NCBI GenBank assembly: GCA_949285935.1
Contig: CASEAH010000070.1
Span: 1 to 64,000, forward strand
Direction of reading: 5' to 3'
Source of the DNA: an uncultured Oscillospiraceae bacterium
Lineage (GTDB): Bacteria > Bacillota > Clostridia > Oscillospirales > Ruminococcaceae
Length of the DNA stretch: 64,000 bases
Below, in pieces: positions 2,599-17,721 of the stretch. The notes beneath the pieces were generated by a model, which had not been told where the DNA came from, did no database searches, and saw only the letters and a program-made list of their open reading frames with translations. Every line of letters begins with the position of its first letter. Within the stretch, counting starts at the first letter, position 1. Both the position numbers and the translations under genes were made by a program.

Positions 2599-2967
2599 TC
2601 AGCTTCTGGCGGGGGCGCGGGCAATAAAGTTTACCGTCAGCCCCCGGAAGCAGCTTTTTCCGTCCCGTTCCCGAAGCAGCTCGTCTCCCACACCGGCAAA
2701 ATAGGCGGTAAAGGTATCGCTTCCGTTTTCCGCCGGTACCGTAACAGTATGGAATTCCACCGGCTCGGTAAGTTTTCGCCACAGCCTGCGATACTCGCCT
2801 GTATCCAGAGTTGTTCCCAGCTTCAGCTGGTAGTTGAAGTAGACGCCGATCAGTTCCCGGCGCAGCACACCGTCCTCGGTGCGCTCGGCATATTTATCCA
2901 GGAAGTCCGCCTTCCTTTTGAGGGAGATCACCGGAACGTCATACTCCTGTCCGTCAATATAAAGCAA
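2599..2967 (-). CDS. small phage tail protein
   Basis: 122 residues starting MLYIDGQEYDV from a TTG at 2965-2967, with a GGAGGGGG site upstream. The start overlaps the end of the tape measure gene by 14 bases, which suggests translational coupling. It lies between the tape measure and the putative hub, a typical place for a distal-tail or tail-assembly protein. Function is inferred only from position. Confidence 0.6.
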   Translation of the reverse strand: MLYIDGQEYDVPVISLKRKADFLDKYAERTEDGVLRRELIGVYFNYQLKLGTTLDTGEYRRLWRKLTEPVEFHTVTVPAENGSDTFTAYFAGVGDELLRERDGKSCFRGLTVNFIARAPARS

Positions 2968-4321
2968 CGCTTCCCCCTCCTTTGATCAGGCTCTGGCCCT
3001 GGCGGTTTTCTTCCTGTTCCAATTCAAAGCGAAGCCAGCGCACCAGTTCCCCGGTGCTGCCCCGGGCGCTCACGTTGAGCCGCAGCTGTCCCTGCCCGCT
3101 CTCCTCCCGGACAATCTGCCGGATCAGGCCTTCCGGGGCCTCCAGATTCCGCCCATGTTTCTGATCGCCCAGCACCGCCAGGAATTCCGCGCCGGGCGGG
3201 ATGACTGCTCCGGTGGCCAGCATGGGGATCTGATACGGTTCTATGGGGTCGATGCTCACTCCGAAACTTTTTCCGCCAATGTAGGGCACCCAGTCCGGAA
3301 CATCGAAATGGATGCGATTCATCTGACGGATGAGGAAATTGATTCCGTCGGTAGCAGCTTTGATCATGGCATTGATCAGGGCAATGATCGCATTGGCTGT
3401 TCCTTTGGCAAAGGCCTGCATGGCATTCCATTGCCCGCTGAAAATCTCCTGCACTCCCTGCCATGCCCGTGACCAATCTCCTGTAAAGGTGCCTGTCAAA
3501 AAGTCGATCACCCCGGAAAAAGTGGTCATAATACCGGCCGCCACTCCGGCGATGGTCTCTCCCATGGCTTTGGTCATGTCTCCCACGGCTCCCACGGTGA
3601 GTGTGGCTCCCGGCAGCAAAACCGTAGTAAACGCATCCGTTACCGGCGTGATAAAGTTTTTAAGGATGGGGGGAGCCTGGGCGATGAGCTGTGCCAGATA
3701 AGTCATCAGACTGTTAAAATTGGGAACGATCTGCTCATTCCAAAAGGTTTCCAGCAGCAGGGATGCATCTTCCAGGATCGGTCTGACTGTTTCCTCCCAC
3801 CCTTCGCTGATTAAAGTAGTCAGCGCGGGGATCAGTTGTCCGATATTCCCGGTAATCAGAGCTTGAGCCGCAACCCAGGAGGCAGTAATGCTTTCCAGTT
3901 TCTCCCGCCACATCTGGTCCATCCCCTGCGTAAGTTGGGAAAACGCTCCTCCGATGCCATCCAGGTCATCGGTAAAACCAGCGGCATCCAGGCTGAGTTC
4001 CGGCGTATGCTGTGCACCGGGCTGCCCACCTCGCCCCTTATCCATCCCGGGGAATTTCTCCGCATTGGTGAGTTCTTCCGACGACCCGGAGGCTGTCGCT
4101 TTTTTCTGTACCAGCACATCCAGCTGGTCAAAGCTGGCCAGCGCGCCCTTAGCGGATTTTGAAACTGCGGCGGTAGTCTTTGCCAGCTGTTCCTCCGCCT
4201 TTACCACCTTGTGCATGGTTTTGGCGGTGTCATTCATTTCCTCCAGCAGGGTCCGGCTCCCTTTGCGCAGCCACTCCAGATCCGTACCGGCCGGCGTGCG
4301 TTTGGGTTCTTTGTCAGCCAT
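2954..4321 (-). CDS. phage tail tape measure protein (short)
   Basis: 455 residues starting MADKEPKRTPAG with a GGAGGTGGAG site. The middle is hydrophobic, Ala/Gly/Thr-rich and helical (GNIGQLIPALTTLI, ITPVTDAFTTVLLPGA). The C-terminal part has LATGAVIPPGAEFLAVLGDQ, a motif I know from C-termini of tape measure proteins in Clostridia phages. The protein sets tail length and is injected with DNA. It is short for the family, many members being 700-2000 residues, which implies a short tail. It follows the Gp15/chaperone pair as expected. Confidence 0.8.
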   Translation of the reverse strand: MADKEPKRTPAGTDLEWLRKGSRTLLEEMNDTAKTMHKVVKAEEQLAKTTAAVSKSAKGALASFDQLDVLVQKKATASGSSEELTNAEKFPGMDKGRGGQPGAQHTPELSLDAAGFTDDLDGIGGAFSQLTQGMDQMWREKLESITASWVAAQALITGNIGQLIPALTTLISEGWEETVRPILEDASLLLETFWNEQIVPNFNSLMTYLAQLIAQAPPILKNFITPVTDAFTTVLLPGATLTVGAVGDMTKAMGETIAGVAAGIMTTFSGVIDFLTGTFTGDWSRAWQGVQEIFSGQWNAMQAFAKGTANAIIALINAMIKAATDGINFLIRQMNRIHFDVPDWVPYIGGKSFGVSIDPIEPYQIPMLATGAVIPPGAEFLAVLGDQKHGRNLEAPEGLIRQIVREESGQGQLRLNVSARGSTGELVRWLRFELEQEENRQGQSLIKGGGSVALY

Positions 4322-4916
4322 TCTCCACCTCCTCATTGGATCCATGTTGGTTCAGTTTCCGATAAAATTCTTCGATCCGTGTCATCTCCTCAGCAGTACC
4401 CGGCTCTGCGGGAGGGAAGGCGGCGGGGCCCAAAGCCGCCGCCAACCTTTTTTCCTCCCGGGTGGCAGTTCCCTGAATCAACCGTCTCCGCAGGTTTACC
4501 AGCCGGCAAAAGGTACAATCCTCTCCCAATTCCCGAAAGAGAGCGCAGAATTTCCACCAATGGAGTTCCTGTTCCCGGCTCAGGTCCACCCCATGACAGC
4601 TGAGGATCCCGGAAAAAATCAGTTCTCCGTCCCGGACAAAACTGTACAGCCTGGGACCGCCGGGAACTTTGGGGGGATCATAAGTCCCGCTCAGGAACCG
4701 GATCCCCAGTTCCAGGGCCTTATGCAGGCCTTGGGCGGTAGCCGGCAGTCGGGGGTACAACAGCTTCAGCAGCAGCGCCTGCCGTTCTCCCGGCGTCAGT
4801 TCCGGATCCTCAAAGGCTTCCAGGATGCGCAGCCCTGTTCGGAATCCGGTGTTCAGCGGATACCGCTGCCCCTGGATCTCCACCTCCCGGGGCAAATCTC
4901 CGGTCAGAAGGTTCAT
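4314..4916 (-). CDS. phage Gp15-family protein
   Basis: 200 residues starting MNLLTGDLPREVEIQG. The pattern of an N-terminal 'YPLNTGFRTGLRILEAFED' segment and a Trp-rich 'ELHWWKFCALFREL' segment is characteristic of the bacteriophage Gp15 family, which lies immediately before the tape measure. Its start overlaps the preceding tail-chaperone stop as ATGA, and its end overlaps the tape measure start. This is the arrangement of tail-assembly chaperone pairs, where the second protein binds the tape measure. The exact biochemical role is not established. Confidence 0.8.
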   Translation of the reverse strand: MNLLTGDLPREVEIQGQRYPLNTGFRTGLRILEAFEDPELTPGERQALLLKLLYPRLPATAQGLHKALELGIRFLSGTYDPPKVPGGPRLYSFVRDGELIFSGILSCHGVDLSREQELHWWKFCALFRELGEDCTFCRLVNLRRRLIQGTATREEKRLAAALGPAAFPPAEPGTAEEMTRIEEFYRKLNQHGSNEEVENG

Positions 4917-5323
4917 CGCAGCACCCCGCCGTCTTCATCGGTGTATGCGGCCAGTTTTTTCTCCCGGGCCTTCCGCACATAGGGCACCACGCCCTCAAAG
5001 AACTGCTGATACATCCTCAGGGAATTGCCGCTTCCAAAAGCAGTCTCACAGGTTCCCTCGCCAAAGAGCCCGTCAATTTCTTTCCTCAGCCAACCGCACA
5101 TCTCTTCCATGAGGACTATCGTCCCCTGGGCATCTCCCTCCTGAAGAGCGGCTGCTCTGGCACGATATTCTTCCTCTTTTTGAGCAAAACGTCCGGCCAG
5201 GCCATAAAATCCCGCCGCAAAGGCCACGTCCTCGGGATCAAAGGCAATGATCCTTTCCGGGTCTCCGTTGACGGCCAGTTCTACACGGCCGCTTTCAATT
5301 TTCAGGGTTTCCACCGTCCGCAC
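4913..5323 (-). CDS. phage tail assembly chaperone-like protein
   Basis: About 136 residues from a GTG at 5321-5323, one base after the stop of the tail tube gene. A TTG at 5362 is an alternative start but has no good ribosome site. The ordered acidic sequence (IIAFDPEDVAFAAGFYGL, then a helical KEEEYRARAAAL segment) and its place between tail tube and Gp15 fit a tail assembly chaperone. I cannot see a slippery sequence that would fuse it to Gp15; the two overlap by ATGA instead. Confidence 0.6.
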   Translation of the reverse strand: MRTVETLKIESGRVELAVNGDPERIIAFDPEDVAFAAGFYGLAGRFAQKEEEYRARAAALQEGDAQGTIVLMEEMCGWLRKEIDGLFGEGTCETAFGSGNSLRMYQQFFEGVVPYVRKAREKKLAAYTDEDGGVLR

Positions 5324-5324
5324 C

Positions 5325-5816
5325 TCACTCTCCGGGGGTAAAGGCCTTGGTTTCGGGGTCAAAGGTTCCCGCCACGGGGTCGCCGATCAGGTTGACGGTA
5401 AAGTTGAGTTTTGCGCTTTCTCCACCCACTCCGCCAAAATCATCGATCTGGATGGAACAGGTGTTTTTCTCTGCCGGGTAGCCGCTTCCGGTATTTTCCT
5501 TATACAGATACACGATGCAGCATTCCGTTCTGGCGTCTGCCAGAACGCTGCGCTTCATCCTCAGGCCGTCCACAAAGTCAAATACGGGGTCTCCCGCGAT
5601 GGCGGTCATGGGCGTGGCGATATTGAGCCGATAGCTTTCCACATCGGTGACGCCGCTGTCCTGATGGACATAAACCTCCTCGCTCACCTGGGGATTGTAG
5701 GCAATCACCTGTTCGGTGACGCCGTCGCCGATCAGGGACCATACAGGCTCTTCACTCTGGGCCCCTGCGGTATTAAGGAAAATTGCCAGCTTACTTCTTT
5801 TGATCTTTCCTGCCAT
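5325..5816 (-). CDS. phage major tail (tube) protein
   Basis: 163 residues starting MAGKIKRSKLAIFLNTAG, with a GGAGAGAG site. Beta-rich and of the size of tail tube proteins. The ordering head-completion, tail tube, chaperone, Gp15, tape measure is the standard siphovirus tail order. The internal 'AEKNTCSIQIDDFGG' and 'KLNFTVNLIGDPV' segments are typical of the phage tail protein found in Firmicutes prophages. The subunit should form the hexameric rings of the tail tube. Confidence 0.75.
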   Translation of the reverse strand: MAGKIKRSKLAIFLNTAGAQSEEPVWSLIGDGVTEQVIAYNPQVSEEVYVHQDSGVTDVESYRLNIATPMTAIAGDPVFDFVDGLRMKRSVLADARTECCIVYLYKENTGSGYPAEKNTCSIQIDDFGGVGGESAKLNFTVNLIGDPVAGTFDPETKAFTPGE

Positions 5817-5820
5817 AAAG

Positions 5821-6273
5821 TTACTCTCTCCTTTTCTCAGTGAATATCAGTGTCAGTTCCAACCGGTAGCTTCTGCCCTTGCCGCCGGAGGATTCCATGA
5901 TGCGGCTTTCTCCGGGCTGGATTCCTTCCGCCCTGCAAAACTCCGGCAGCTGAGGCAGTTCTTCCGCCTGGTCCTTCTCCCGGATCCACTGGGTCAGCCG
6001 TTCCATAAACTCCTGGTTTTCTCTCCGTTCCTTCTCATCCGATGCCAGAGAATTGCGGTACACCCAATATTTCCGTGAGATGGTGCGGTTGCCTGCCACA
6101 TCTTCCCGCACCAGTTCCTCCCCCGCCGGGGAGACCGCCAGACTTCCGGCTTTCTCCCCGGTGAGGTCGGTGGTGATCCTGGTTCCCGCTTCCAGCTCCG
6201 GATACCCGGCCAGGAAGAGGCGCAGCCCCTCGGCAACGCTTCGGGGCGCCGCATCTGTTACAGCAGCGACCAT
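5821..6273 (-). CDS. phage minor capsid/tail terminator-like protein
   Basis: 150 residues starting MVAAVTDAAPRSVAEG, preceded by AAGGAG. The start overlaps the upstream gene by 16 bases. The N-terminal helix followed by a beta-rich domain ending in 'YRLELTLIFTEKR' fits tail terminator/tail completion proteins (also called minor capsid protein in Firmicutes phages). Such proteins cap the tail tube and join it to the head. The call rests mainly on size, fold impression and position before the tail tube. Confidence 0.6.
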   Translation of the reverse strand: MVAAVTDAAPRSVAEGLRLFLAGYPELEAGTRITTDLTGEKAGSLAVSPAGEELVREDVAGNRTISRKYWVYRNSLASDEKERRENQEFMERLTQWIREKDQAEELPQLPEFCRAEGIQPGESRIMESSGGKGRSYRLELTLIFTEKRRE

Positions 6274-6725: not shown

Positions 6726-7058
6726 TCAGCACCACCGGCACAGCAGCCCCGTATTCCCCAGCCAAAGAGACGCCGTCTCGTAAAGCCGCCGGTCCAGAGA
6801 GCTGTTTCCCGTATCGGCGTAGGTCTGTTTCCAGCTGCCCACTGTCTGGCTTTTCAGCGCGCCTCCCTGTTCCTGCCTCCACAGCACCTCGGCAACCGCA
6901 CAAACCGCCTTGCGCACGGGCTCCTTCTCAGGGTCGGCCCGGTTGCCGGTGACTCCGGTCAGCCACTGTTCCGCAGCGCCTTCCACCCGTGTCCAGGCGT
7001 CGACGGGCACCAGAGTCCCGCCATAGGCGTCGGTATAGTAATCATAGTCGGCGTACAT
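6726..7058 (-). CDS. phage head-tail connector protein (gp6/gp15-like)
   Basis: 110 residues starting MYADYDYYTDAYGG. A small helical protein with 'WTRVEGAAEQWLTGVTGNR' near the N-terminus, in the usual slot directly after the coat gene where the DNA-packaging/connector (gp6-like) protein is found. It would bind the portal ring. It is 21 bases downstream of the coat gene, so it is part of the same transcript. Confidence 0.65.
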   Translation of the reverse strand: MYADYDYYTDAYGGTLVPVDAWTRVEGAAEQWLTGVTGNRADPEKEPVRKAVCAVAEVLWRQEQGGALKSQTVGSWKQTYADTGNSSLDRRLYETASLWLGNTGLLCRWC

Positions 7059-7079: not shown

Positions 7080-8192
7080 TCAGCCCAGCACCCGCACAGC
7101 CAGTTCAGGATGCATGGTTTTGAAGGAGTACAGCACGTCCATGGACAGCATTTCCTTTTTGTAGGTCATATTGTAGCCCCGCACCACACGCAGGCTCAGG
7201 CCGTTATAGTTGGTGACGTAGCTTTCCACGCCGGCAGGCTGTGTAAGGGGCCGGGTAACAAAGGCAAACGCCATGGGATGGAAGGCCAGGTTGGCGGTAT
7301 GCTTCCCCATCAAAGTCACTTCGGTGTCATCGGGCAGTTCCGGCAGAGCAGGGTACACCTCCACACCGGCAGTGGCATTGGCGGAGGCCTCCGCGCTGTC
7401 CTTGGTGACCACATAATTTTTCCCGCCGATGGTAAGCACATCGCCCTTGATAAACTTACCTGTCAGAGCCGTTCCATCAATATTGATGACGGTGTCTCCC
7501 GCCTCACAGCCGCCGTTGAGCTTGAGATCGGTTCCATTGGTAACGCCGCTTTCATGGACGCGCACTGCCTGGGACATATAGTTGTTCAGTCCGAATACCC
7601 TGCCGATGGAGCCATCCCGCAGCGCCTCGCTGCTGCCGGATTTTTCGGCGTTGACCAAAGCGTCAATGGTGGTAAACTGGGTATCCGCCTCGGTATCCCA
7701 TACCGCATATCGGGGGCTGACCGGCACGCAGTTCTGGTTCAGGGCGCAGCGCACCGCTGCCAGATCCTCCAGGGTACCGGGGGTTTTCCCCGCAGTGCCG
7801 ACGCAGCCGGGGATGTCTGCATACAGAGCCAGACCATCCCGGTTGATCTTCTGAGCCAAAGCGGCGGCAGCAGGCTCAATGAACTGCCGCTGAATGTCCC
7901 CCACGTTGCTGGCGCCCTGGAGAGCGGTGATATCCACATCCACAGTAGCGATGCGGTCAAGGGTCACCTCCACCGACTCCTCTTTGATGTCCTGAGGGGT
8001 AACGCCTACCTTTTCATCAAAGTCCCGGGCTTCCAGAACAACAGGCTTGCGGACCTGGATCTTGTCTCCCAGGTTCCGGGCAAAGTCCCCGGAAAAATCC
8101 CGGTAAATGAGGCTGGGAAACACCAGATTTTCCATCAGCCTGGGCAGGGCATTTCTTGCGATTTCTTTAATAGTAATAAACTCATTTGCCAT
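7080..8192 (-). CDS. major capsid (coat) protein, P22-type
   Basis: 370 residues starting MANEFITIKEIARNALPRL. The N-terminal 'LENLVFPSLIYRDF'-like segment, 'GDKIQVRKPVVLEARDF' and 'DRIATVDVDITALQG' are typical of P22 coat-like (gp5-type) capsid proteins of Firmicutes phages. A domain insertion with 'GDTVINIDGTALTGKFIKGD' resembles the variable I-domain region. The C-terminus 'MDVLYSFKTMHPELAVRVLG' is also characteristic. It follows a scaffold gene as expected for a HK97-fold procapsid. Confidence 0.85.
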   Translation of the reverse strand: MANEFITIKEIARNALPRLMENLVFPSLIYRDFSGDFARNLGDKIQVRKPVVLEARDFDEKVGVTPQDIKEESVEVTLDRIATVDVDITALQGASNVGDIQRQFIEPAAAALAQKINRDGLALYADIPGCVGTAGKTPGTLEDLAAVRCALNQNCVPVSPRYAVWDTEADTQFTTIDALVNAEKSGSSEALRDGSIGRVFGLNNYMSQAVRVHESGVTNGTDLKLNGGCEAGDTVINIDGTALTGKFIKGDVLTIGGKNYVVTKDSAEASANATAGVEVYPALPELPDDTEVTLMGKHTANLAFHPMAFAFVTRPLTQPAGVESYVTNYNGLSLRVVRGYNMTYKKEMLSMDVLYSFKTMHPELAVRVLG

Positions 8193-8272: not shown

Positions 8273-8701
8273 TCAGCCGCCCAATTTCACCGCGTAGTAT
8301 TCTTCATCACTCATGCTGTCGTAGTCGCAGCCGGGGCCGGGGCTATGGCTTCCGCCCGTGGTCACCCGGAGTCCGCCGCTCCCGTCGCCAAAGAGATATC
8401 CGTCGCTTTGACGGAGCGCCTTCAGTTGTTCTTCCAGTCCACTTACAGTACCGTCCGCCTCCAGCCGCAGTGCAGCAGTCTCCAGCATTCCCCGTACCGC
8501 CCGGACATTTTTGGCGCCGCTCTTCCATAGCGCCCGCTCCACCGCGCCTTCCAGCCGGAGATGGGCCGCGTCCTCATCATACCGCTGACGCATCGCCTCC
8601 ATTCTGCTTTCCAGAATCTGCCGGTCCTGCCCGCCCAGGGCCATAACCGCCTGGATTTGTTCTTCGCTCAGTCCCAATTGAGCCAATTGTTCCGCACGCA
8701 T
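8273..8701 (-). CDS. phage scaffolding protein
   Basis: 142 residues starting MRAEQLAQLGLSEEQIQ at the ATG 8699-8701, with AGGAGGAG upstream; a longer in-frame start is not supported. The body is highly charged and helical (a coiled coil around residues 20-100, with 'LESRMEAMRQRYDEDAAHL'), as in Phage_GP20-type scaffolds. Scaffolds are transient internal supports for procapsid assembly. The gene is directly upstream of the coat gene, as is usual. Confidence 0.8.
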   Translation of the reverse strand: MRAEQLAQLGLSEEQIQAVMALGGQDRQILESRMEAMRQRYDEDAAHLRLEGAVERALWKSGAKNVRAVRGMLETAALRLEADGTVSGLEEQLKALRQSDGYLFGDGSGGLRVTTGGSHSPGPGCDYDSMSDEEYYAVKLGG

Positions 8702-8944
8702 CGTTCTCCTCCTTTCCTGCATTTTTGTCCTGCTGTCGAGTTTCGGGGCAAGAAACCCTCTTTGCCTTGGCTCGAAAAATCCAGGTCCAGGCACTCTGTT
8801 TCTGCCTTTTCTCACCCCGTCTCCTATCCGTCAGCTTTCTAAACTCCCAGCCTTTGTTTCCACGATCCCGGGGCATGGGGCCCTCTGTTTTTTGCCCATG
8901 TCCCCAACAACTTCGGCAGATAGGTTTCATAACAGGAACACCGG
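8702..8944. other. non-coding or undetermined gap inside phage block
   Basis: 243 bases between the portal stop and the scaffold start. Phages of this type often carry a minor head protein here. I see no reading frame with a convincing start and family-like sequence; the only ORFs run into the flanking genes. It may be a deletion scar or a very small unknown gene. Confidence 0.4.
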
Positions 8945-10381
8945 TTATCCGGCGGCTGACTTTTGCAGGTCCTGCGCTGCTTCAAGGGCGGCTTTCCTCG
9001 CTTCTGCTTCCGTTTCGCCATACCAGCGCATACGGTATTCCCACCGGCGCATCAGACCGTTTTGTACTTCTTCACGGTCCCGTTCCCGCTGGCTTTCCCG
9101 GTCGATCAGGTATCCATCCTCGAGGATCACCGCAATGGGGCAGTCGGGTCTGACGTCCATTCCCAGGGCTTCCCGTCCTGCCCACAGAATGGCCCGAAGG
9201 ATCTCTTCCACTGCGCGGCGCACGGCCAGGCCATGCTTGGCAGCGTTCTGTACCAGTTCCTGCCTGTCTCCCATATACTGAGTCGCCGTAAGGATTTCTC
9301 CCCGTTCAAACTGATAATGCCTGGTACCCAGGCCGCACTTGAAGCTGAGATAATCCAGCTGCGCCTGAAGGCCGCCGGTATTCTCCTCCACCCGCAGGGA
9401 GGGGTTAAACTCGTGAATGAGCCGTTGGGCGTCCAGCCCGTCGTTGTCCCCCATGTTCATGAAAAGCTGCTGGGCCACATCGTCGGGGGTGATCATAGTC
9501 CCGTCGGCGTCACGCGCGGTCAGGGACTGGTTCAGAAAAACTTTTTTTCCGCCCAGCTTAAAATCTCTGCAAAAGTTATTGAAGCAGAGATCCACTCCTT
9601 TTAAGCAATCAATGGCGTTGGCAAATATGGACAGCCCCAATCCCGTGCCTTCGTCCACGTTGTTGACAATGGCAGGGCGGAGGATGGAAAACAGCGGCAG
9701 ATCACTGCCAGTTTCCATTTCCCGGGCCATCCCCTGCGGGAGGGAACGGGGTTTCAGTTCGCCGTTTTCTTCTTTGAAGTACCGGTTCCGGATCACATAA
9801 CCGTTTCTGCCCAGAGTATGGGTTTCCAGGTAAATAAGCCGCTCTCCCCCCTCCAGTGTTTCAGAAACAAAAGCTGCCTCCCGGATTTTTCCCTGCTGCA
9901 CCGTAAGGGGGATAATATTGCGGGCGGAAAGAAATTCCACACCAATCTGTCCGCCGTGGGGGAGAATTCTTCCGTCCCGAACCTCCACACCGCCCAGGCG
10001 CAGCACCATGGCTCCTGTCCCGCTCATAAAGGCCTTTTCCACCAGGGTGTTGGCCTGATGCCAGAAGTCGCACTGTCCCAGAACGCCGCCCTGTCCGTCC
10101 TTCCCCTGGAGGAAGTCGCTGCTTTTTCGGTGTCCCACCGTGATACGGGTCTGTTCGTTCAGCAGCAGGGAAGCCCAGTCCTCGCAAACCTTTTTGGCCA
10201 TTCCCAGGGTATACATTTCCCTGCGTATCAGCTGCGGGCCGCTGCGTTCCCGGAACTGGTGAAAGGGCCGGTAGCATCCCCGCCACCAGGCCTCCCATTC
10301 CCGGATACGGGCATAGTAGGCTCCGGAAAGATTTCCTCCTGTCTCCCGGTTCAGCAATTCTATAATTAATTGGATATTCAA
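8945..10381 (-). CDS. phage portal protein (SPP1 gp6-like)
   Basis: 478 residues starting MNIQLIIELLNRETGGNL; the ATG overlaps the terminase stop by four bases. The central 'SIFANAIDCLKGVDLCFNNF' and 'DYLSFKCGLGTRHYQFE' segments, with a 'TATQYMGDRQELVQNAAKH' stretch, are typical of the Phage_prot_Gp6 portal family of Firmicutes phages. It forms the dodecameric DNA entry ring, docking the terminase and later the connector. Length fits the family. Confidence 0.88.
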   Translation of the reverse strand: MNIQLIIELLNRETGGNLSGAYYARIREWEAWWRGCYRPFHQFRERSGPQLIRREMYTLGMAKKVCEDWASLLLNEQTRITVGHRKSSDFLQGKDGQGGVLGQCDFWHQANTLVEKAFMSGTGAMVLRLGGVEVRDGRILPHGGQIGVEFLSARNIIPLTVQQGKIREAAFVSETLEGGERLIYLETHTLGRNGYVIRNRYFKEENGELKPRSLPQGMAREMETGSDLPLFSILRPAIVNNVDEGTGLGLSIFANAIDCLKGVDLCFNNFCRDFKLGGKKVFLNQSLTARDADGTMITPDDVAQQLFMNMGDNDGLDAQRLIHEFNPSLRVEENTGGLQAQLDYLSFKCGLGTRHYQFERGEILTATQYMGDRQELVQNAAKHGLAVRRAVEEILRAILWAGREALGMDVRPDCPIAVILEDGYLIDRESQRERDREEVQNGLMRRWEYRMRWYGETEAEARKAALEAAQDLQKSAAG

Positions 10382-11694
10382 ATCGCGCCTCCTTTTTGGT
10401 TTTCCTGTCCCCCGGCCAGCTGCCGGATAAAGCGTTCAAAGCTGTATTCAAAGGCATCCAGGATGTCAATATCACTGGTAAAATTGTCCAGCCTTACGTC
10501 CCCTTCCCTGGACGGATCCCATACTGCCTCCTCCAGTCCCCGCCGCAGCAGGCTGCATTCTTTGTTGAGCTGCAGCCGGTCTGCGTTCAGGAGGGTATTG
10601 GTACAGCAGATCCGCTGAAAAATGGGGACCTTTGCACAATCTCCCACCTTGATTCTCAGTCCGGCGGCGGCACAGGCTCTTCTCAGTCCGTTGATGAGAT
10701 ACTGGGCCTCACAGTCGGCAAAGCAGTACCGCACCTCCCGCCCGGGGCAGATGCCCTCCACCTTCTGCACAAAGGCAATAAATTCCCGGTTCACCCGTTG
10801 TCCGTCGATCTCCCCCTTTTCCCCCCGGACACAGTGATCCGCCAGCACGGTCAGTCCCCGGAATCCCCGATGGATGGCCGTAGCTGCAAAGGTAGTCATA
10901 GACCTGCTTCCTCCAAAATCCACACCAATGGCGATAAACTCGGTATTCTCCGCCAAAGCCCCGCGCTGTCCCGGAGTACTCAGGTCGGTCAGCCATCTCT
11001 GGGGGTCGTCGGCAAAGCTGCGATATACCGCTCCCTGGGCCGCCACCCATTCTCCCAGGATGTACCGGCGGTAAAAAACTCCGGTATACTCCCGTTTCAG
11101 CTCCCGGACATATTGGGGGTCCAGGGCAGGATTATCCTCCAGCCGGAAGGTCATCCGCAGCAAATCCAGCTCTTGCTCCCGGCTCAGATAATCCTCCATC
11201 AGCCAGTGCCTCGGACTGTCCGGGTTTGTGGTAGCCAACAGCTTGGCTCCCGGCTGTGAAAGCCTGGACAGCAGCATGGCAAAAAAATTTCGGTCCAGCA
11301 GCGTCACCTCATCGCAGTAGGCTCCCGCCAAGGTCAGTCCCCGGATTTTTTCCTGTGAACGTGCGTCGCCGCCCCCTTCCAGGAAAATTTTTCTTTCAAA
11401 GAGTTTTCCTTTTTTAGAGGCCAAACTGTAAGCAAAGTGTTCCGGCCCTACCATTCCCATCAGCGGCTCCAGAACATTGCGTTCCAGCGCCGCCAACGTG
11501 CGTCCTGCCATCAGGTATCTCCCCTCCGCAGGACGGGAAGCCACCCACAGTGCCCATACCGCCAGGCTGATATAGGTCTTTCCTGATCTTACCGAACCTT
11601 CCAGAAGATTGAGCCGCTTCAGACCGTTGTTCCTCAGCAGCCGTATGAGTTCCTGTTGTCGGGGGCTGTAACAAGATTTTTCGGCTTCCCTCAC
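10378..11694 (-). CDS. phage terminase large subunit (PBSX-type)
   Basis: 438 residues. Walker A GSVRSGKT at 33-40, Walker B-type acidic pair in AYCDEV around 128-129, and the TTNPDSP coupling motif at 155-161 form the packaging ATPase. The C-terminal nuclease shows GVDFGG (Asp259), an acidic 'CFADCEAQ' near 320 and 'SDIDILDAFEY' near the end. The pattern matches PBSX/XtmB-type terminases that cut and package phage DNA. The start overlaps the small-subunit stop by four bases. Confidence 0.92.
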   Translation of the reverse strand: MREAEKSCYSPRQQELIRLLRNNGLKRLNLLEGSVRSGKTYISLAVWALWVASRPAEGRYLMAGRTLAALERNVLEPLMGMVGPEHFAYSLASKKGKLFERKIFLEGGGDARSQEKIRGLTLAGAYCDEVTLLDRNFFAMLLSRLSQPGAKLLATTNPDSPRHWLMEDYLSREQELDLLRMTFRLEDNPALDPQYVRELKREYTGVFYRRYILGEWVAAQGAVYRSFADDPQRWLTDLSTPGQRGALAENTEFIAIGVDFGGSRSMTTFAATAIHRGFRGLTVLADHCVRGEKGEIDGQRVNREFIAFVQKVEGICPGREVRYCFADCEAQYLINGLRRACAAAGLRIKVGDCAKVPIFQRICCTNTLLNADRLQLNKECSLLRRGLEEAVWDPSREGDVRLDNFTSDIDILDAFEYSFERFIRQLAGGQENQKGGAI

Positions 11695-12083
11695 GTTTCT
11701 TCAGGTCCTTTTCCGTCATTTGCTGCCGGCAGGCCTTCCAATCTTGCCAGGACCCGCTGCAGCTGCTCCTCTCGCTGGGCGTCGGTGCTGTCGGGATGGA
11801 GGCTGATCCAGTCCTTGAGAGCCGCCGCCAGCTTTCTCAGGCTGTCTATATCCACATCTCCTTCCTGCATTTCGGTTTTTTCCCGTTCCTCCACCATTTC
11901 CCGGAGAAGTTTGGCACTGTTCTGGTCATATTCCAGCTGTTTTTCCCGCACCTTTACCTTGATGGGGTGATGGGTCAGCTGATCCATAGCCTGTTCCAGC
12001 TTTTCCCCCAGCTGCTGGGTCAGATGCTCCACCCGCTCTGCCGGTGTTTTTTGCCTGCGGCGTTTTTTTGCCGTAGCCGCCAT
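11691..12083 (-). CDS. terminase small subunit-like protein
   Basis: 130 residues with a basic N-terminus (MAATAKKRRRQKTPAE) followed by a helical, strongly charged segment around 20-100. It is the first gene of the packaging-head operon and overlaps terminase large by ATGA. Small terminase subunits bind the packaging site and are poorly conserved; the call is by position, charge and coiled-coil look. An AAAGGGGG ribosome site precedes the ATG. The SOS-type operator upstream probably controls this gene and everything after it. Confidence 0.65.
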   Translation of the reverse strand: MAATAKKRRRQKTPAERVEHLTQQLGEKLEQAMDQLTHHPIKVKVREKQLEYDQNSAKLLREMVEEREKTEMQEGDVDIDSLRKLAAALKDWISLHPDSTDAQREEQLQRVLARLEGLPAANDGKGPEET

Positions 12084-12118
12084 TTTCGTCCCCCTTTCCC
12101 TCCGGGTCGCCCCGGATT

Positions 12119-12132
12119 AGAACATATGTTCT
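12119..12132. promoter_or_regulatory. LexA (SOS) box: AGAACATATGTTCT
   Basis: A perfect 14-bp palindrome, AGAACATATGTTCT, carrying GAAC-N4-GTTC, the half-sites of the Gram-positive LexA/DinR box (consensus close to CGAACATATGTTCG). It begins about 35 bases upstream of the first packaging gene and just downstream of a -10 hexamer, where bound LexA would block transcription. Sequence match is direct; binding is inferred. Confidence 0.8.
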
Positions 12133-12144
12133 TCTTCAAGACCT

Positions 12145-12173
12145 ATTGTACCATGGAATTTTGGAAATGTTAT
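12145..12173 (-). promoter_or_regulatory. promoter of phage packaging/structural operon
   Basis: On the minus strand a TACAAT -10 (12145-12150) lies 17 bases after ATAACA (12168-12173), a weak -35 with four of six consensus bases. The expected transcription start falls a few bases before the LexA-type palindrome. The -35 is poor, so an activator may help. Confidence 0.55.
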
Positions 12174-12935
12174 CCTTTTTGAAAAATATTTTGCAATCCA
12201 GGCCTTTTTCCTTTTCTCCGCTTTTCATCAAATCCCGGGAAACTACTCCAACTGCTTTTACAGCCAAGACCTCCGTTCCCTATCGCAGCTTCCCTGTTTG
12301 TACCATCTCCTCCCAATATTCTATTTCTTTGCCAGATGAATCGCCGCAAAACAAAGACGTTCCAGATGTCTGTGCAAACCAAGCACCCATGACACCCGGC
12401 TGTGCCGGTGGTTTACACCGCTTCTCCTTAGACCCGCCTGCTGCCAGCAGCGCCTGATTATTCCATTTGCCGGGGCACTCTGCTTTTGCTTAAATAACGG
12501 TAGGATTCTTCCACGATTGCTTTCTGATGGTGAATCCCAACCAGCCCTATTGCTTTTTCTCATTCTTCATTTCCCGCGATATTTTTTCGGGCGGAGTGAA
12601 AACCTTTTACACTCCCCCACACAACCGATGGTTTCCTGACACAACAAAAAACAGCGCCCCTTCTGAGCCTAAACCGCTCAAAAGGCGCTGTTTTATGTAA
12701 TAGCAGAACTGATAAATTACCAACTTGACAAATAAAAATATCCCGTAAAAAGCCTTCGCTTCAAGTGTCCCAAAAGCATGGCGCTGATGATAACCCTTGA
12801 CGCACCCGCTTCCCGGATGTCCGTATCAAGTCTTGTGCTCCCAAAGGGACCCGGACTTTTTATGTTTCACCGCCAGGAAGCTCCCGGAGCACCCCTGCAA
12901 ACAGCCGGCAGCTATGAAAGCCGGTTTGTAGGGCA
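12174..12935. other. intergenic region between phage block and DUF401 gene
   Basis: About 760 bases without a confident gene. It contains the terminator at 12646-12694 and two short minus-strand open frames (12458-12559 and 12280-12489) that look like a frameshifted, decayed coding sequence. No integrase, repressor or attachment repeat was recognised here, although this is where the early region of a prophage might be expected. Confidence 0.5.
12646..12694 (-). terminator. intrinsic terminator downstream of DUF401 gene
   Basis: Hairpin with arms around AACAGCGCC...GGCGCTGTT and GAGC/GCTC inner pairing, flanked by A/T runs on both sides, so it may act in both directions. It is about 240 bases beyond the DUF401 stop. 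The stem resembles the one after the NAD synthetase gene at 57608. Confidence 0.65.
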
Positions 12936-14144
12936 TCACAGGAACATCCCCAGGAGCATGCTGTAACCATAAGCCACGATGCTGAAGAGAACCACCATCG
13001 GCGTTGCCCGAACCACCAGATCGCCCAGGCTGGTCTGGTAATACCGTGCCGCCACAAAGGAGCATACATGGGTGGGCGAGATCTGCATGGCTCCCCATGT
13101 CACACACATCAGCATCACCAGCAGCGGCAGCCCCCCCTGGGGGATGGCCGCCAGCGCCATGGGCAGACAAAGGGCAATCATCGCCTGGGATCCGCTCACA
13201 ATGGTTCCAAAGAAAAAGATCAGCCCAAAGGCCATGGTGATGGGGATGGGGAATTGCCCAAAAAAGTCGGGCAGCAGAGACACCACCCCGGTATAGGTGA
13301 TGATTCCTTTAAAGAGCATGATCAGATACATATTTACCAGCAAAACCGGCTCTGCCGATTCTTTCAGCAGCCCCGGGATCTCTTTTGCCCTGAAGCGGTC
13401 CACCACATAGTTGACAGCTATAACGATAGGGGTTGCCATACATACCGAAAGGTTAAAGGTTATGATGATCAGCACCACCGCAATGAGGGACCACAGGTTT
13501 TTCACCAGATTCAGCCCTTCCTGCTTGCGATTCACCGGATGCTCCAGCGGCGGCATCCATGCAGGGATTTTTCTCAGGTAAAAAAGATAGGCCAGCAGGC
13601 AGGCAGCCAGCACCATGGGAAGCATGCTCAGCACAAACAGGCCGGCGTTGACGCCGCTGAGGGTAAGCGCCAGCAGCACGGCGCTGAAGGTGGGCAAAAA
13701 CATCTCCGGTATATGCCGGTAGTAGCAGGACACCACCATTTTTTCTTTTTTATCCAGATATTCGCCGCAGGTGGTGTCCACCATATCGGCGCAGATGGTC
13801 ATCACAGCGGCAGAAGGCAGCAGGCCCAGAATGGCGGAAGACAGCGCTGCATTGAGGCGCCGGTTGCGCAGCAGGCAGTCAAAGGACCTTTGCGCCTCCC
13901 GAAGGCGGCTGCGATGCTCCAGCATTTTTTGCAGGAACGTGACAAAGTAAAAGCTGAGCAGCACATTGATGGTATCTGCCGCAATGGTCTGTCGTGCGAA
14001 TACAGAGACTGCATCCGCAAACGGCACACGGAAAAGCAGTACTGTGGCGATGATTCCGCCGCCGATGGCCATGAAAAGAGGCTTTTTCATCCAAAGGATT
14101 GCTATAATGACGAGAAAGACGATTCCAAGATATAAAATTTCCAT
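12936..14144 (-). CDS. DUF401 family membrane protein
   Basis: 402 residues starting MEILYLGIVFLVIIAI at the ATG 14142-14144 with AAGGATG upstream. About ten hydrophobic segments, beginning at residues 3-20 and 27-45, and the 'GSQAMIALCLPMALAAIP' and 'ISPTHVCSFVAARYY' stretches, point to the DUF401 group within the ion-transporter-like permeases. Substrate unknown. It follows a PatB/MalY-type lyase gene in the same direction, across a terminator hairpin, so uptake or export of a sulfur-containing amino acid or product is possible. Confidence 0.75.
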   Translation of the reverse strand: MEILYLGIVFLVIIAILWMKKPLFMAIGGGIIATVLLFRVPFADAVSVFARQTIAADTINVLLSFYFVTFLQKMLEHRSRLREAQRSFDCLLRNRRLNAALSSAILGLLPSAAVMTICADMVDTTCGEYLDKKEKMVVSCYYRHIPEMFLPTFSAVLLALTLSGVNAGLFVLSMLPMVLAACLLAYLFYLRKIPAWMPPLEHPVNRKQEGLNLVKNLWSLIAVVLIIITFNLSVCMATPIVIAVNYVVDRFRAKEIPGLLKESAEPVLLVNMYLIMLFKGIITYTGVVSLLPDFFGQFPIPITMAFGLIFFFGTIVSGSQAMIALCLPMALAAIPQGGLPLLVMLMCVTWGAMQISPTHVCSFVAARYYQTSLGDLVVRATPMVVLFSIVAYGYSMLLGMFL

Positions 14145-17354: not shown

Positions 17355-17721
17355 CGTACAGAAAAATTCCAGGCATCACCCTTATTTTTCCTCATACCCA
17401 AGACATCCCAGAAGAAAAAACAAAAATGAAATATAAAGTTTGGGTCTCTTCATTTTTCTCTGCAATATTCCCCCTGATCCGTTGCTGAATCAGCCTTTGG
17501 AACGTCCTGCTTTTTGTTTTGAACATGGCGTGTACGTGTTTCAGAATTTCCGGATTCTTCTTATTTGGGGGCCTCCAGCATGAATTTTTCTTAATATTTT
17601 TGAGGCAAATTGCTCAAAAAGACTTGATTTTAATTGTCTAATAGGCTATACTGTTGAATTAATAACGCCGGTCAGAAACATATGTCCTTCATACAAAGAC
17701 ACTTTAAGGGGCGATAGTAGG
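17355..17721 (+). promoter_or_regulatory. leader region and promoter of the opp operon
   Basis: TTGATT at 17624-17629, 17-base spacer, TATACT at 17647-17652, about 70 bases before the first permease gene. The 270 bases upstream are AT-rich and show no gene. A short repeat of TTGAGGCAAATTGCTCAAAA (17600-17619), an imperfect palindrome, lies just upstream of the -35 and could be an operator. Confidence 0.7.

Follow-up and report, generated by a model that had tools for sequence, protein, structure and literature searches.

A predicted LexA operator at the promoter of a phage-derived packaging, head and tail gene block in an uncultured Oscillospiraceae bacterium

Which regulator switches on a block of phage packaging, head and tail genes that lies beside host genes in the chromosome of an uncultured Oscillospiraceae bacterium? 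We addressed this question in a stretch of 64,000 nucleotides (hereafter the window), which begins at base 1 of contig C70 (CASEAH010000070.1). Just ahead of the block, AGAACATATGTTCT (12119-12132) reads directly from the sequence as an exact palindrome of the GAACN4GTTC type. A sequence-only reading had proposed that this palindrome is a LexA box placing the whole late block directly under the SOS regulator, rather than under a CI-type phage repressor. Our analysis leads to a similar view: the palindrome would be a LexA operator at which LexA blocks a late-gene-only, PBSX- or GTA-like cassette until DNA damage, with no phage repressor involved. We give this reading a probability of about 0.8, and base it on the motif, the promoter match, the gene content and the host genes on one side of the block.

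On the minus strand, the elements ahead of the block run in the order ATAACA (12168-12173), 17 bases, TACAAT (12145-12150), 12 bases, the box AGAACATATGTTCT, a GGAGGG...GGGGG stretch (12090-12103) that is the probable ribosome-binding region, and the first ATG at 12083, which 36 bases separate from the palindrome. The sequence therefore bears out what had been described here, namely an exact palindrome directly after a TACAAT -10 and 36 bases ahead of the first gene. The promoter-like site (12145-12173, minus strand) was found by a consensus scan, with 9 of 12 consensus matches and an extended -10 (TGG-TACAAT); since shuffled sequences average 0.8 such sites, this match alone is weak evidence. 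A separate late-gene activator directly upstream of a better promoter would have spoken against LexA control, but this site was the sole one of its kind in 11700-13100 and no activator was recognised. The operator of predicted LexA type abuts this promoter, itself a consensus match, and would be placed at about +6 to +19 from the presumed start point. Farther upstream, the minus-strand fold of 12636-12700 reaches -31 kcal/mol (z -6.55), with T's at its end. A terminator of this hairpin type (12643-12690, ends approximate, minus strand), which a simple terminator scan missed, therefore probably parts the block from the upstream host gene.

The short pattern GAACN4GTTC was rejected as evidence when taken alone, as it occurs once in the window against 0.71 expected and 17 times in the genome against 13 for the reversed pattern. 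We found the fuller motif RAACATATGTTY at three sites in this 2.44-Mb genome (before lexA, at C64:25622 and before the block) and at 13 sites in 8 of the 10 genus genomes searched, with 0 for the reversed control. Because this fuller motif is rare, its reversed control gives 0 and one of its sites lies before the genome's own lexA, the motif stands above chance. The genome encodes both LexA and RecA, and its lexA box is AAACATATGTTT at -134. Among genus lexA loci scoring over the family cut-off, 8/8 have an AAACN4GTTT box at most 350 bases upstream. For uvrB, 7/9 genus loci have a box or a one-mismatch near-box in front, and near-boxes precede recA in 8/8, two of them weak. By eye, the genus motif also stands ahead of radical SAM genes of DNA-repair type and, in two genomes (G148 and G029), ahead of a small conserved gene. 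At C64:25622 (L009), the 14-mer recurs letter for letter ahead of a gene for a 66-aa protein without a Pfam match, to which the boxed small genes of G148 and G029 are, by eye, similar.

A position weight matrix built from 26 sites, including two wrong picks (L058, L066) and one low-scoring site, ranked AGAACATATGTTCT first in the window with 20.9 against 14.8 for the next, a score that is partly circular, as the C64 site used in training has the identical 14-mer. The second-best site, a weaker box-like GAAACATATGTCCT (17675-17688), lies just ahead of an oligopeptide-permease-type gene (17722), and AAAACATATGTCCT at 8018 in L020 resembles it. Elsewhere, AGAACATTTGTTCT precedes a large serine recombinase by about 350 bases (L018, G000:C27, 3930-5749). 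Any perfect palindrome may serve as an operator, and AGAACATATGTTCT might belong to some other dyad-binding regulator; its core, however, is shared with the boxes of lexA and of most uvrB genes in the genus, and we regard a regulator other than LexA as very improbable. From these comparisons, we strongly infer that AGAACATATGTTCT is a LexA-type operator on the block.

The block spans 12083 to base 1 and consists of 15 uninterrupted minus-strand frames plus one frame cut by the contig end. Because window base 1 is base 1 of C70 and the block reaches this physical start, its 12 kb are a lower bound; of the supposed 12-kb head/tail operon, the packaging, head and tail content stood and the length is a minimum. 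The first gene (11691-12083, 130 aa) has its best PHROG match at E 0.0032, to a family without assigned function, and is called a small terminase by position only, because it shows no similarity to the first gene of the related locus L258, with which it was compared. Behind it lie a large terminase (10378-11694; PF03237, phrog_2), a portal protein (8945-10381; phrog_533, 8.5e-93), a head scaffolding protein (8273-8815; PF06810, phrog_194), a P22-type major coat protein (7080-8192; PF11651, phrog_283), a head-tail adaptor (6726-7058; phrog_541), a DUF6751 phage protein (6258-6689; profile matches) and a tail completion protein (5821-6273; phrog_3266). The probable major tail protein (5325-5816) matches phrog_3099, which has no assigned function, and weakly the major tail family phrog_820. 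It is followed by two phage proteins of the tail region (4913-5362, phrog_11299; 4314-4916, phrog_706), a tape measure protein of 463 aa (2954-4345; phrog_1535), a phage protein (2599-2967; phrog_1194), a probable tail-tip protein assigned by gene order (852-2624; phrog_13879), a further phage protein (451-885; phrog_18725) and, by eye, the start of a fibre-like gene (1-450), whose frame runs off the contig.

Upstream of the block stand host genes, a DUF401 permease and an aminotransferase; between these and the block we recognised, mostly by eye, no CI-type repressor, integrase, replication gene or late activator. A tmRNA gene and a tRNA-Val gene were located far from the block. One rival explanation is an ordinary prophage whose early and lysogeny genes lie beyond the contig end, with the LexA box adding an SOS input to a normal repressor circuit. 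We consider this unlikely, if still worth weighing. The contig ends within the fibre-like gene, and a search with the first 300 bases of C70 returned only C70 itself and no overlapping contig. Moreover, the coat gene is absent from all nine other genus genomes searched (six of the nine under 90% complete), as for a recent arrival; therefore, the block does not descend from an old inheritance of the whole genus, and long vertical inheritance at one locus was not seen for it. By eye, relatives such as L161 and L172 carry phage early-type genes upstream. However, in prophages of that type the early-type genes stand upstream of the terminase, in the place where this genome has host genes, and the two relatives nearest to the window, L258 and L262, also have host-type genes directly upstream. 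Another contig, C99, holds a different phage tail module with an amidase and was rejected as a part of the block, to which it is not joined.

The block might also be a decayed prophage remnant without function, its promoter carrying a LexA-like palindrome by happenstance. Consistent with a deletion, the 1.4-2.4 kb that separate portal from scaffold in L161 and L172 are missing here. The compact portal-scaffold order is, however, common to L258 and L262, none of the 15 genes that precede the contig end has an interrupted frame, and AGAACATATGTTCT matches the genus consensus perfectly. We consider decay improbable.

If LexA governs this block, similar boxes might stand ahead of terminase homologues in other genomes, where the sequence-only reading had suggested looking. 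A coat alignment search picked up 48 loci from named genomes, with 38 more from viral contigs; 87 loci were examined, and the non-redundant set in which a large terminase was detectable, with room upstream, numbers 35. Some RAACN4GTTY occurs in 14 of these 35 operons, which come from other Clostridia, and ten carry LexA-type boxes (L270, L281, L283, L285, L287, L288, L289, L291, L292 and L293), a count that leaves out L256, L258, L290 and L306. The strict GAACN4GTTC pattern was found 17 times in 45 kb upstream of the terminase; downstream of it, 439 kb contain 9. When the letters of GAAC were permuted, each of the 11 remaining arrangements occurred at most once upstream, and GAAC came first among 256 half-sites; this count was designed after the boxes had been noticed, in loci that are related to one another. 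In the relatives' own genomes, lexA scored over the cut-off in 13 of the 16 asked, and GAACN4GTTT lies 80-178 bases ahead of it in 13/13 (three with a further site). Boxed relatives often have one box within the spacer of TTGACA-N17-TATAAT and another just after it; across the five loci that were compared, the promoter sequence is TTGACAGAAC....GTT.......TATAAT, and the second box follows about 36 bases on.

Host-type genes lie upstream in nine loci (L258, L262, L281, L283, L286, L287, L288, L292 and L293), six of them boxed, and phage early-type genes in six (L161, L172, L256, L294, L315 and L316), with one odd-centred site, in L256 (all by eye). The window's nearest relatives by terminase, L258 and L262, show no convincing box, and the window's box is isolated within its own branch of the terminase tree. 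On that tree (58 rows, 16 labelled as boxed), the label needs at least 5 changes, against a mean of 14.2 for shuffled labels, none of 500 being as low; labels were assigned by visual judgement, which passed over the hits at L258, L306, L256, L290, L359, L360, L364 and L026. These changes are suggestive of several gains or losses of the box. Among 37 family terminase loci, a sample without the window, nine have some RAACN4GTTY; upstream, 46.7 kb contain 13 sites, and the remaining 98.7 kb contain 8. The reversed control gave 8 and 15, respectively, leaving a mild excess, and strict GAACN4GTTC gave 2 and 1. The large-terminase relatives in the family (best 49%) were set aside: they are mosaic phages with few boxes and no coat match in the 11 mapped.

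Similar small genes stand behind the boxes of L281, L285, L289, L292 and L293, and the three tested match activator families (phrog_36/248). Zinc-ribbon-like small frames lie directly behind LexA boxes in L292 (3292-3570), L281 (5564-5815) and L378 (15097-15354). The locus L292 is a complete late-gene-only cassette of 12.7 kb between host genes, in the order boxes, zinc-ribbon-like frame, activator, TerS, TerL, portal, scaffold, coat, tail genes, holin, amidase and host P-type ATPase. L285 and L292 lie at one locus: the same host gene follows the amidase in both (83% identical, dS 0.67), and eight element genes show dS of 0.44-0.90 and dN/dS of 0.03-0.24. In this they are reminiscent of GTA-like elements such as FpGTA and PBSX. 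L281 and L283 have upstream jag- and yidC-like genes in common (52% and 60%), and dN/dS is 0.10-0.20 in five genes of L287/L288. By eye, L372 and L373 are both near mnmG-rsmG-recX-like genes, the L372 cassette being traced for about 9 kb as far as a GH25 lysozyme and that of L373 looking degenerate. Short boxed phage-late cassettes, L378 and L380 (G372:C9, G332:C10), lie near recX-like genes in two genomes of one genus, one of the cassettes being degenerate. Domestication, which had been suggested for the block itself, is thus weakly supported in this genome, given a coat gene in 0/9 genus genomes and a contig-cut end, and better supported in some distant relatives; that the block is late-only and domesticated is plausible.

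Boxes of this type also precede other phage-like genes within the genus. In G153 (L227, C291, 5620-6989), a TACAAT followed by the same 14-mer stands at the head of a three-gene cassette of one gene without assigned function, a holin (PF05105) and an amidase (PF01520), near a FeoB-like host gene; this is possibly an SOS-driven lysis cassette. In G140, a late-only-looking element (G140:C5) is without a strong box and has one GAACCTTGGTTT about 2 kb upstream. The same genome has, by eye, a LexA-type box between a lone ArpU-like activator gene and a divergent S24-type repressor gene (L228, G140:C6:1120337), and this locus may act in trans on the late-type element.

PBSX of Bacillus subtilis is governed by its own Xre repressor and a sigma-like factor. 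In contrast, the block described here would be under LexA directly. PBSX is a mitomycin-induced chromosomal particle element that packages 13.4-kb host fragments (PMC12946183). GTA-like packaging was reported in 2026 in Oscillospiraceae and Ruminococcaceae, with a gene cluster given for Faecalibacterium (PMC12946183). This FpGTA comprises late genes only: an operon of 10.5 kb encodes TerS, TerL, portal, scaffold and coat, and lysis genes are present as well (PMC12946183). The block resembles it in late-gene content, and FpGTA differs in being split in two operons (PMC12946183). The coordinates given for FpGTA I and II are CP030777: 2536737-2546346 and 2672270-2677176 (PMC12946183). In the text of that paper, the words 'LexA' and 'promoter' have 0 occurrences, yet GTAs are called likely SOS-inducible (PMC12946183). 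The repressor of the Caulobacter GTA, RogA, is LexA-like and not LexA (PMC9632790).

At promoter P3 of phage GIL01 (Bacillus thuringiensis), which drives capsid and lysis genes, host LexA binds its boxes, and lysogeny involves no dedicated phage repressor (PMC6182141). The block is alike in having a LexA-type box at a late promoter and no recognised phage repressor, LexA binding being shown in GIL01 and predicted here. Unlike the block, GIL01 is a complete temperate phage of tectivirus type with replication genes, and its P3 also uses the phage activator gp6 and the LexA partner gp7 (PMC6182141); no such genes were recognised in the block, which consists of tailed-phage genes in the chromosome. 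On plasmid pBS32, the gene for the sigma factor SigN is directly repressed by LexA, a mobile-element case that parallels the ArpU-type genes behind boxes in relatives, and a predicted phage structural promoter there is SigN-insensitive (PMC6751061). The LexA boxes of C. difficile are GAACN4GTTY, in a paper whose text has 0 occurrences of the word 'phage' (PMC4234289). LexA control of late genes is therefore known from GIL01; for late-only tailed-phage cassettes in Clostridia, we found no report of such control in the open-licence literature, outside of which most subscription papers fall.

In the mechanism that we propose, LexA in the undamaged cell would cover the initially transcribed bases at the 12145-12173 promoter, keeping the packaging, head and tail block silent. 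DNA damage would activate RecA and lead to LexA self-cleavage, whereupon the vegetative RNA polymerase would transcribe the genes from terminase to tail, no phage repressor intervening. In all likelihood, the block is a late-gene-only cassette for particles of phage origin, comparable to PBSX and GTAs; on this view, it would be late-only up to its unseen end and would form particles that package DNA. The claim that the late block is directly under LexA thus holds up as an inference from the genus operator type, the sole promoter-like site, the want of a recognised CI-type repressor or late activator upstream and the recurrence in relatives, and direct SOS control is likely. The comparisons further suggest that several related phage-like blocks are wired alike, DNA damage directly turning them on.

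More tentatively, and at somewhat less than even odds, Clostridia may carry recurrent lysogeny-free particle cassettes of about 9-13 kb directly under host LexA, with one box in the TTGACA-N17-TATAAT spacer and a second box downstream, or a single box after the -10. This wiring would have arisen several times, and the cassettes would be the missing clusters behind GTA-like packaging in Oscillospirales, with DNA damage triggering host-DNA packaging and lysis; the LexA-boxed cassettes are candidates for this role. If this is true, it is the DNA-damage repressor of the cell itself, without an intervening phage repressor, that times the making of phage-like particles in Clostridia, many of them from animal guts, and DNA damage caused by antibiotics would be tied to DNA packaging and lysis.
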